From positions 8,489,991-8,553,990 of the forward strand of contig OY811971.1 in NCBI GenBank assembly GCA_963681505.1: 64,000 nucleotides of DNA. The letters run 5' to 3'. Both the position numbers and the translations under genes were made by a program. The stretch comes from Eunapius fragilis. Lineage: Eukaryota; Porifera; Demospongiae; Spongillida; Spongillidae. Every line of letters begins with the position of its first letter. The first letter of the stretch is position 1. This document shows positions 3,232 through 60,300 of this stretch, piece by piece. The notes under the pieces were generated by a model, which was given only the letters and a program-made list of their open reading frames with translations, did not search any database and was not told where the DNA came from.

Positions 3232-3380
3232 CTGCATGTCCCTTATATTTATACAGCTTAAATTATATATACATCTGCATGTTACACAACGAACAGTAGA
3301 CCTTATGCAAAAGAGTTTATAGCAACCTATCACAAATGGGCCGTACATGCATGCAATAACTGATGTAAAGAGCTCCATGT

Positions 3381-4000
3381 TCAGCAGTGGAACCCAATGG
3401 CATCTACCAGGCTTCCTGAACGACCGTAGATCCCTTGTAGGTTGCACTGGGATACTTGGAAAGGGTTGCCTCCAGTTCCTCCGTACGGACCGAAGATTCG
3501 CCCAAAGTTGGTTACGAAAGTGAGGCTATCAACCAATGCACCGCTTCGTCCAAAGATCGCAACTACTCTTTCACTCAAGGCTAGATCGATTTGGGCTGGG
3601 GTTCCTCCACCGCCACCGTAGTACCCCGAGGTTTGTCCGTTATTATAAACAAGTTGAATCGAGTCGATCAACGAACCAGACCGAATGCGAATCGACCGCA
3701 CTGAGCCGCTTTGGGTATTAAAAGCATCCCCTCCTCCTCCACCGTAGAGCGGACTGTCAGCCTGCACCTCTCTGAATGGTTTAAGAAACAGACGCGCCGG
3801 GTATCACGTTGATTAATGCATGTTAAAATGTTTCCTTACGTTACTTCTTCAATTCCTAGCTCATCTGCAATAGCCACGAACGTTGTATTGGCCTTTGTAG
3901 CTTTCACACGATCGCTACTTTGCGCGACCGAGGTGAAGCCAGCATCCCGCGCACTGCAGATCCCAAAGAGCAGAGCGACAGTACTCACGTAGATGAACAT
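3381..4000 (-). CDS. Secreted jacalin-like lectin, two exons (intact copy)
   Basis: Predicted secreted carbohydrate-binding protein of 183 residues. Exon 1 is 4000-3840 and exon 2 is 3771-3381; the join AAC|gtaagg...cattcag|AGAG keeps frame (552 nt including stop). The start at 4000 is preferred over the upstream ATG at 4081 because it gives a clean signal peptide (MFIYVSTVALLFGICSA, cleavage before RD) just downstream of a conserved TATA box. After a ~38-residue linker, exon 2 encodes one jacalin-type beta-prism domain: a glycine-rich first strand (PLYGGGGG), SIRIRSG and IDSIQL blocks, a second Gly loop (GYYGGGGG), and the diagnostic end GIYGRSGSLVDAIGFHC. Jacalin-related lectins usually bind mannose or galactose; the ligand here is unknown. 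The right-arm copy at 7926-8814 is its near-identical, disrupted paralogue. Confidence 0.85.
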
Positions 4001-57300: not shown

Positions 57301-60300
57301 ACTACAGAGATAATATGGTAAGGGGAATCACCTGCGATATATACATGTACCTATACCACCTACTGGTGCAACCAGAATTCTGAATCTGTGAAAAAATATT
57401 TTTCTGATGTTTGAACACTGAATTTAAGCTCCCTCCCAATAAAATCCAGTAAGACTAACCAATATCTTGATGGAGCCTCCCTAGTCATAGCACACACCCA
57501 AACGTCAACATGCTCTGTAACCATGATGGAATGATATTGTCGAATGGGGGAGTTGGATAGCATGTGTAAAGAACCTGTCTTCCATGGGGTTAATAGCGAC
57601 CAAAAAAGGAGTACGTTTAAGGAAGACCGGGGACCTTAGTTACGCCAGAATGAGGGAGTTGCTGTTAACTGGCCCAGTTAGGCTATGACCCTGCTCTGTT
57701 TTGTATGCTCAGCCTGTGTGCTGGAGGTGCCACAGCAGCGGCCAATGCAGGTGTGGAGGATCGATTATTCAAGCGACATGGTCGCTGGAAGTCTGCATCA
57801 GCCAAAGATTATGTGAAGGTCTCAGTTGAAAGGCGCCTAGAGGTGACCAGGCAGTCAGGCAGCAACCCGTTCTTTGTGTCTCTATCTGGTTGTGTGCGTG
57901 TATGCTGCTGTGTGGCATCGTACACAAAGAAGCTAAACCAATACTCTATTGGAGAGCTATACTGAGGGCATGTCAGAGGGACGAGGGGTGGATTCTTGGT
58001 GAATGACTGTTGAATAAGGGTAGCTACATGTATAATTACCACCATTAGGGTAGCTACATGTACATATACATGTACATGTACCACCTTCATAACGGTAGCT
58101 ATGACCACCACTATAAGGGTAGCTATGACCACCACTATAAGGGTAGCTATGACCACCACCACCATAAAGGCACATGACTGCAACCATAAGGGAGCTCACC
58201 TCATTTGCAAAGTTGTAGCTCTCATCATACTTGAGTTTGTTGATCACTACAAACAGCAGGGCCCGGATGCTTTCTGTGTTGTCCTGAGACCTGCCATAAT
58301 GCTGTAGAGGAACATTGCACACAGCCTCTGATCACATGATCATGTCACATGATTGAGGTATAGCTGTGAGTAACTTAAAGTGAAAATGGCAAGTGTTCGA
58401 GCAATAAGCCAACAGTACAGACCTCATGCAGCAGTAGGCTACATTAATGATGTAATGAGGCACAGATAAGCACGCATCAATATTTCCTCCTTCCCATTAC
58501 TGGTAGCCAAACAAGCATAGACACACACACACACACACACACACACACACACACACACACATACACACACACACACACACACTCTTTACAAGTCCGAACG
58601 CATCTCTGTACAACACCTTCCTGAGAATACCTTTAAAACCCCCATGTACTGAACAGCAAATGGTATGACAGCCTCAGACACTCCGTCATCCTCATCACCC
58701 AAGTACCTGCAAGTATGGAAGCCATGTTACTAATCCTGCTTGTGAAAATACAAAACAACAAATCCACAATGTTACCATGCCAACCAAATATAGCTTCATC
58801 AACCATTAGGCGAAGGAATGTTGAGACACATTAGCAGTTGAGTATAGCCATGTCTAGTCAAACAAAAAAAAGTATGACCTTCTCTAATGTAGTTCAAACT
58901 TTACCCAACTACTGACCTCATATACCTGTACATATAGTTCAATTATTTCGTCCCCAGGCCAAACCACTTTTGAATTACGCGGATTTAAAGTTTCGATGTT
59001 TTGTAATAACAATACTTGTTCACGGGGGCGTTCCCACCCATAAATCCCGTAGCTGTTGCAGTTTTGCAGTAGTATGTAGACCCGCACATGTGGACCACAA
59101 TTGGACCACATGCGCGTATATAAGTTGAGCGCTTGACGATTCATGCGGTAGTTACAGCTAAAACAAGGTAAATATCTTTGATTCAAGATTGCCAAAAAGT
59201 ATATTTGTAGAATAAAGCGATATTGCACAGCAAGCATCTACGATAGTTGTTAAACAGCTTGCAGCACAATGCCAGAGTGGCAATTTACATTTTAAAGGGT
59301 TATTAATAAAAATAGTAAGTAAACACCAAATTGACCAATACTATTTGAATAGCCCTTCTCCGCATCATATATTCATTGCCTTGTGGTTTACATAACTTAC
59401 CACGTTGGTTTACACAACGTGCGGTTACGTAAGCCACAAGACGATGAATGATTATGCGGAGAAGGCTATTAAAATAGTATTGGTCAATTTGACTATTTTG
59501 ATTAATAACTCTTTAAAATGTAAATTGCCACTCTGGCATTGTGCTGCGCGCTGTTTAACAACTATCGTAGATGCTTGCTGTGCAATATCGCTTTATTCTA
59601 CAAATATACTTTTTGGCAATCTTGAATCAAAGATATTTACCTTGTTTTAGCTGTAACTACCGCATGAACCGTCAAGCGCTCAACTTATATACGCGCATGT
59701 GGTCCAATTGTGGTCCACACGTGCGGGTCTACATACTACTACAAAACTGCAACGGCTACGGGATTTATGGGTGGGAACGCCCCCGTGAACAAGTATTGTT
59801 ATTACAAAACATCGAAACTTTAAATCCGCGTAATTCAAAAGTGGTTTGGCCTGGGGACGAAATAATTGAACTATATGTACAGGTATATGAGGTCAGTAGT
59901 TGGGTAAAGTTTAAACTACATTAGAAAAGGTCATACTTTTTTTTGTTTGACTAGACATGGCTTTACTCAGTTGCATTTAGGTGTGCGAGATTAATGCCCA
60001 CCCTCATTGCCACCAGAGTACTGCTAATTAATGCCCACCCTCATTGCCACTGCTAATTAATGCCCACCCTCATTGCCACCAGAGTACTGCTAATTAATGC
60101 CCACCCTCATTGCCACCAGAGTACTGCTAACCTTTTGTCTTTAAGAACTACCTTTGGTAATGTAGTGGTGATGATGATTATGGCAAACCATTTAATATTG
60201 TCCCACTGATGCTGCAATTGTTAATCCTACAAGCCTGCCCACCCCCTCCCCTGCGTCCACTTCCAACACAAAAAAACAGGTTCGTATTAAAACGTCTATC

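Follow-up and report, generated by a model that had tools for sequence, protein, structure and literature searches.

Foldback transposons as the probable source of three of four long palindromes in a 64-kb stretch of the Eunapius fragilis genome

Why should 64 kb of a sponge genome contain four long palindromes? We asked this question for a stretch of Eunapius fragilis DNA (contig OY811971.1, positions 8,489,991 to 8,553,990; 64,000 nucleotides, in the following "the window"), which is C1:8489991-8553990 of a 218.9-Mb genome in 24 contigs. An earlier note on this DNA, the sequence-only reading, had described four inverted duplications, here called PAL1 to PAL4. It took each of them for an event of its own and not for a member of one transposon family, as their arms share no sequence, and proposed a recurrent inverted-duplication process or foldback elements of an unfamiliar kind. 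Our results support this interpretation in part. We find that PAL2, PAL3 and PAL4 are very probably non-autonomous foldback DNA transposons, that is, elements with long terminal inverted repeats (TIRs), and PAL1 a jacalin-lectin gene duplicated in inverted orientation. The cluster can be explained without any unknown palindrome-making process.

All four palindromes were recovered at the places where they had been noted. A BLAST comparison of the window with itself gave broken blocks for PAL1 (3236-5720 against 6719-10103, 77-97% identity), arms of 93.5-95.5% identity around a 317-bp spacer for PAL2, arms of 98.6% identity around a 255-bp spacer for PAL3 (42210-43343 against 43599-44732), and a self-complementary stretch of 93.6% identity for PAL4 (58839-59969). 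The window has inverted repeats of 1145, 1135 and 775 bp, while none passed the identical threshold when it was shuffled 20 times in 3-base blocks. Using blastn with low-complexity masking, we found no DNA similarity between the arms of PAL1 to PAL4, in agreement with the sequence-only reading. The four inverted duplications are genuine and exceed chance, yet they are not one phenomenon. Note that the counts from genome searches given below refer to the best candidates and should be read as minimum values.

PAL3, PAL4 and their transposase-bearing relatives

Full-length palindromes of the PAL4 type, with 95-98% identity, are present on C18, C17, C19, C21 and C23 (best 40 of 61 candidates), and the same search found longer places where the two arms lie ~2.1-2.7 kb apart. 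The ends of this type are GAGT. Tolerating up to 2 mismatches per 15 bases, we recognised both ends in 8 of 17 distinct places (the window, C18, C17, C19, C21, C23, C13 and a long element on C1), and in all eight the element is flanked by identical 4-bp target site duplications (TSDs), namely AGTT, ATCC, ACCC, TGGT, TTTT, ATGA, ATCT and ACAT. The nine places with one end or none were left unscored. The whole of PAL3 occurs with at least 98% identity in four places (the window, C7, C18 and C11; best 40 of 124 candidates). Its two ends differ, one being GG-GTCATTGC (GGGT) and the other GA-GTCATTGC (GAGT). With up to 3 mismatches allowed, five of seven distinct PAL3-type places have both ends and the other two only one; four of the five carry identical TSDs (TATT, GGTA, TACC and ATGG).

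Next, the flanks of 10 PAL4 and PAL3 copies were joined after removal of the element and one TSD, and the joined sites were compared with the window and the retrieved loci; the PAL3 copy of the window stood outside this test. Matches were found for three of the ten. The site of the C23 copy of PAL4, which sits within a PAL2-type element, is present in 24 of 24 bases in an uninterrupted PAL2-type copy on C2 (L048). For the C17 copy of PAL4, which interrupts a ~40-bp satellite, the joined site is found in other units of that satellite, and for the C7 copy of PAL3 it agrees with adjacent tandem repeats except for 1 mismatch. Because of the TSDs and the empty sites, we regard the scored PAL4 and PAL3 copies as products of transposition.

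Do the copies descend from one palindrome, or was each formed anew? For PAL4 the arms themselves give an answer. In five copies (the window and L029-L032), arm A and arm B show fixed differences in 27 common alignment columns, made up of 7 substitutions and 3 indel blocks. Two of the copies were flipped before this count, guided by the table of arm identities; of the 16 possible arm labellings, the remaining 15 yield 0 fixed columns. Since the five copies hold identical arm-specific mutations, their arms diverged once, in a single founder, and the copies then spread by transposition. This contradicts, for PAL4, the recurrent inverted-duplication process that had been proposed. For PAL2 and PAL3 such a process is not needed, and the comparison of PAL3 arms is not decisive on this point.

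To see what the palindromes are made of, we turn to their longer relatives. At the locus L047 (C1:4303450-4307650), one open frame of 886 codons lies between inverted ends of 543 bp. These ends are 98.2% identical to each other and 81-84% identical to the PAL4 arms. Two long elements of the PAL3 type (C17:3131648-3136613 and C1:9581016-9585975) start with GAGTCATT (GAGT), and both have TSDs, AATG and GCCG. The L047 protein is 44% identical to the protein of the former and 43% to that of the latter; the putative transposases are 871-886 residues long. As the long relatives encode homologous transposases, PAL3 and PAL4 belong to one superfamily, as two subfamilies without common DNA. The conclusion that unrelated DNA means separate events, and not one transposon family, thus fails for this pair. 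Among the best candidates the L047 protein has 86 matches in the genome. Some of these relatives, on C3, C6, C9 and C12, have 47% identity, equal scores and 772-codon open frames, and such equal-scoring relatives on separate contigs suggest recent activity of the superfamily.

Both arms of PAL3 carry the C-terminus of this putative transposase in opposite directions. A tblastn search places residues 734-863 of the L047 protein on both arms of the C7 and C18 copies. In the C18 and C11 copies the left-arm match covers residues from 669 on and reaches into the loop; in the C7 copy it is the right-arm match that does so, covering residues from 692 on. Together the PAL3 copies match residues 669-863. 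The left arm of PAL3 and 116 bp of the 255-bp loop align collinearly with the long relatives. Owing to these opposite matches and this collinearity, PAL3 is best read as one transposon end (the TIR and the 3' part of the transposase gene) that has been mirrored, the loop being at least partly from the same gene. The mirrored 3' part therefore accounts for the mirrored open frame that the sequence-only reading had seen in PAL3. It had described such a frame in each palindrome. It is also real in PAL1, where it is a jacalin domain, but by eye the frames of PAL2 and PAL4 dissolve into mostly CA/TG repeats and TIR sequence, respectively.

To which superfamily PAL3 and PAL4 belong is less clear. 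By the length of the TSD and the size of the protein it is perhaps Sola2-like. Sola2 elements have GRG termini, and the ends seen here agree with this (PAL4-type elements and the long PAL3-type elements have GAGT, PAL3 has GGGT and GAGT). The 4-bp TSD is common to PAL3, PAL4 and Sola2, and our putative transposases of ~870-890 residues are close to the 888 residues of the Sola2 elements in the excerpted text of PMC3627910. On the other hand, the amoebozoan elements described in that text have TIRs of 12-21 bp and AT-rich TSDs, traits that are not known to define the superfamily, whereas the TIRs here are ~550 bp long and the TSDs are mixed (including ACCC, TGGT, ATGG and GCCG). Besides the TSD and the ends, a transposase of ~880 residues is the trait common to Sola2 and the relatives of PAL3 and PAL4. 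The L047 protein has no Pfam match and no credible match in NCBIfam or the PDB, as one would expect of a different superfamily, possibly an undescribed one; given the agreement in TSD, protein size and termini we consider this rather unlikely. None of the viral contigs that were scanned holds a relative of the L047 protein, and a text search of the literature for the strings CDGIGG, CDGLGG and CDGVGG gave a single, unrelated paper.

PAL2 and PAL1

PAL2 does not end where it had been drawn. Its true left end, TATA-TGGGACAG, is at 14043, 762 bp beyond the boundary given in the sequence-only reading; six other copies, compared at 12 ends, carry PAL2 sequence outward past that boundary. The counterpart of ~760 bp is missing from the right arm of the window copy. 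A search with the terminal part (best 40 of 5438 first-look candidates, window included) gave 38 matches that extend as far as the query does; the other two stop ~100 bp short. Fourteen of the 40 places form seven inverted pairs, six of which span 7.2-7.3 kb and one 11.0 kb. From the left half in the window and the 7.2-kb span of other copies, we obtain a full arm of ~3.6 kb. Three pairs were examined for a TSD, and one could be scored (L067/L068), reading GAAAC-TATA before the element and TATA-TTCAG after it.

The arms of PAL2 contain many CA/TG repeats and 27-bp tandem repeats. Sequence sampled from inside a 7.2-kb copy matches the inner arms of PAL2 and lacks any long open reading frame (ORF), and the longest frame in the interior of L048 has 157 codons. 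Apparently, PAL2 represents a non-coding foldback family aimed at TATA, distinct from that of PAL3 and PAL4. An origin from Tc1/mariner or ISL2EU elements was considered and rejected: by eye, 0 of 82 listed DDE_3 matches and 0 of 118 listed YqaJ matches fall within 11 PAL2-type spans.

A 257-bp miniature inverted-repeat transposable element (MITE) adjoins the left end of PAL2, and the same module abuts the termini of other PAL2-type copies in either orientation. MITEs of ~230-260 bp with ends of the TATATGGGACAGTGTCC type lie at 13787-14043 and 22363-22588. The module and the PAL2 terminus meet perhaps since both may target TATATA. A tRNA-Asp gene (GTC) is located at 22857-22928, ~2 kb to the right of PAL2.

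The idea of foldback elements therefore holds for PAL2, PAL3 and PAL4, which have dispersed copies with common ends and mostly exact TSDs where these can be scored. In all three the arms form nearly the whole element: PAL4 is continuous, the arms of PAL3 make up 1134 of ~1263 bp per half, and the spacer of PAL2 is the 317 bp given above. It does not hold for PAL1. Here both arms carry the same gene, with a jacalin-like lectin domain, paralogues are found elsewhere, and there are no transposon ends; no TSD was seen by eye at the boundaries 3236 and 10103. Small palindromic elements have inserted into its arms. The genome has 22 jacalin matches, among them two further divergent pairs less than 10 kb apart, one at C2:423501-427056 and the other at C1:8434297-8443491, ~50 kb to the left of PAL1 and with blocks 75-88% identical to it. 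PAL1 is an inverted duplication inside a lectin gene family.

Coordinates and other features of the window

Table 1. Features of the palindromes and adjoining elements (positions in the window)
Feature	Position	Strand	Evidence
PAL1, divergent (head-to-head) jacalin-type lectin gene pair, inverted duplication	3236..10103	.	self-BLAST, Pfam, genome search
Jacalin-like lectin domain ORF, left arm of PAL1	3381..3803	-	Pfam PF01419 E=4.1e-24
Jacalin-like lectin domain ORF, right arm of PAL1	8417..8815	+	Pfam PF01419 E=6.6e-23
257-bp MITE, ends similar to ATATGGGACAGTGTCC, adjoining the left end of PAL2	13787..14043	.	genome copies
PAL2, apparently non-coding foldback, family with TATA as target; left end intact (5'-TGGGACAG), ~760 bp absent at the right terminus	14043..20788	.	
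PAL2 left arm, portion with mirrored partner	14805..17619	+	self-BLAST
PAL2 right arm	17937..20788	-	self-BLAST
TSD TATT, left of PAL3	42204..42207	.	
PAL3 foldback element, ends GG-GTCATTGC / GCAATGAC-TC, 1134-bp arms, 255-bp loop	42208..44734	.	
Mirrored putative transposase C-terminus, left arm of PAL3, residues 785-864 of the L047 protein	42951..43193	-	tblastn
Mirrored putative transposase C-terminus, right arm of PAL3, residues 787-863	43755..43988	+	tblastn
TSD TATT, right of PAL3	44735..44738	.	
TSD AGTT, left of PAL4	58836..58839	.	
PAL4 foldback element formed by two directly joined ~550-bp TIRs; ends GAGTATAGCC	58840..59968	.	
TSD AGTT, right of PAL4	59969..59972	.	

Apart from these features, self-BLAST of the window showed four smaller self-palindromes (5592-5837, 8847-9141, 32822-33118 and 45253-45524), a family of ~250-300-bp elements. 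The copy at 32822 has 39 other places with 97-100% identity (best 40 of 1519 candidates), which suggests a recent burst. Other candidate mobile elements are seen as well. A piggyBac-like transposase with interrupted frames lies at 34949-36046 (35214-35771 matches PF13843 with E=5.2e-14, while two adjacent frames gave no Pfam family), and an ORF with a hAT dimerisation domain at 39800-40264 (PF05699, E=3.3e-7). Directly to the left of PAL3, the region 40312-41582 contains an ORF with a weak, below cut-off match to the N-terminal domain of phage integrases (PF13495, E=1.8e-4) and a neighbouring ORF, RNase H-like by eye, for which Pfam gave no match; the region is possibly a DIRS/Ngaro-type element. 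The longest frame of the window in the stop-to-stop list, 316 codons at 46786-47733, has no Pfam match. Positions 1-1200 are a dispersed repeat with 66 listed genome matches including itself, the others at 70-97% identity.

Alternative explanations, known systems and meaning

How could such palindromes have formed and spread? We propose that the parent superfamily would consist of cut-and-paste elements with ~550-bp TIRs, a transposase of ~870 residues and a 4-bp target duplication. PAL4 would have arisen by loss of the entire interior, which joined TIR to TIR. In PAL3, one end (the TIR and the 3' part of the transposase gene) would have been copied inverted over the opposite end by fold-back or template-switch synthesis, probably in repair after excision. 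A transposase recognising the ends would then have mobilised the palindromes in trans, giving the dispersed copies. PAL2 is a separate family with TATA as target, TGGGACAG ends and repetitive arms of ~3.6 kb, presumably moved by some transposase.

Several observations weigh against this explanation. The L047 protein has no Pfam match, its only NCBIfam match is an implausible one (0.015) and its only PDB match has E=6.9, so that its identity as a transposase rests on context. In DNA, the long relatives of PAL3 with a near-complete transposase frame share only ~72% identity with it, and each has one stop in the matched stretch; for this reason the immediate parent of PAL3 was not found. One of the five PAL3-type places with both ends, on C2, lacks an exact TSD (TTAC/TGAC). 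In PAL3 the identity of the arms within copies (98.5-99.5%) is mostly above that between copies (97.6-98.9%); the founder pattern of PAL4 does not appear here, and homogenisation of the arms or repeated formation may have played a part. For PAL4, one of the three indel blocks lies at the edge of the alignment. Of the 7 substitutions, the C23 copy (L033), which is outside the five-copy count, has only the innermost 4; the C13 copy stood outside the arm comparison. Seven of the ten joined flanks had no empty site in the window and the retrieved loci. Two of the three PAL2 pairs sit within TA repeats and could not be scored for a TSD, and a transposase for PAL2 was not found among the listed DDE_3 and YqaJ matches.

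Potentially, a genome-wide process of local inverted duplication, such as template switching at replication forks, could build palindromes anew from any sequence, the four in the window being independent products. The lack of common DNA between the arms, the local inverted gene duplication of PAL1 with a second pair ~50 kb away, and the PAL3 arms, which mostly resemble their partner in the same copy more than the arms of other copies, are what this process would leave behind. It may even have built a founder, but it leaves the dispersed copies of PAL2, PAL3 and PAL4 unexplained, which have the same ends, TSDs and, in one case, an empty site. It is contradicted for PAL4 by the common founder mutations and disfavoured for PAL2 and PAL3, and as an account of all four palindromes we regard it as very unlikely. 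Another problem could be the assembly itself, as near-perfect palindromes are a classic assembly failure and would result from chimeric joins or from a head-to-head fusion of haplotypes. The earlier note had raised this worry. It is answered for PAL3 and PAL4, whose copies lie on several contigs with differing flanks, most with their own exact TSD, and additionally by the empty site of one PAL4 copy; the arm-specific mutations common to the PAL4 copies speak against it as well. We therefore reject an assembly chimera for PAL3 and PAL4, and find an artefact hardly credible as a general explanation.

Foldback transposons of the kind that we prefer have known counterparts. According to the excerpt of PMC3573991, Galileo of Drosophila mojavensis (P superfamily) has copies made of two TIRs and copies whose TIRs are extended by inverted duplication of adjoining internal sequence (2RT); its TIRs reach ~1.26 kb, are longest in copies without a transposase ORF and in part hold tandem repeats. 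PAL4 resembles the former in being two long TIRs, PAL3 the latter in that its TIR is lengthened by inverted internal sequence, and PAL2 shares the tandem repeats; in PAL3 and PAL4 none are found in the tandem-repeat listing of the window. Galileo differs in its transposase and its 7-bp TSD (4 bp in PAL3 and PAL4), in its TIR length (~1.26 kb against ~3.6-kb arms in PAL2), and in recruiting spacer beside the coding region, whereas PAL3 recruits transposase coding sequence. In the latter respect PAL3 is closer to Mu killer of maize, in which, according to the excerpt of PMC3440606, part of mudrA is duplicated in inverted orientation and TIRA is present twice. In PAL3, too, part of a putative transposase gene forms an inverted duplication and one terminal region is present twice, but PAL3 duplicates the 3' end of the gene and is itself mobile (four near-identical copies with TSDs). 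Finally, the Tm1 Mutator/Foldback elements of Meloidogyne include, in the excerpted part of PMC3169594, non-autonomous members of the Mutator superfamily with 9-bp TSDs, as against 4 bp in PAL3 and PAL4. Their foldback form is similarly tied to a transposase-bearing family, and the terminal bases outside the inverted repeat differ between the ends, as they do in PAL3.

Taken together, three foldback transposons, two of them in one superfamily, and one gene duplication make the window mostly ordinary once it is resolved, and what seemed a new palindrome-making process becomes recognisable transposon biology. The absence of common DNA does not mean the absence of a common origin, since PAL3 and PAL4 are linked solely via the putative transposase of their relatives. 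PAL4 is a clean case in which arm-specific mutations distinguish a transposed single founder from repeated local inverted duplication. PAL3 ties the lengthening of TIRs to a mirrored transposase fragment like that of Mu killer, and this fragment, inside a mobile element, is the part that most deserves the attention of specialists. One may even speculate, with little confidence, that PAL3 is a mobile Mu killer, whose mirrored transposase piece, when read through into hairpin RNA at new sites, feeds small-RNA silencing of the autonomous relatives. If so, the parasite's own ends would spread its repressor.

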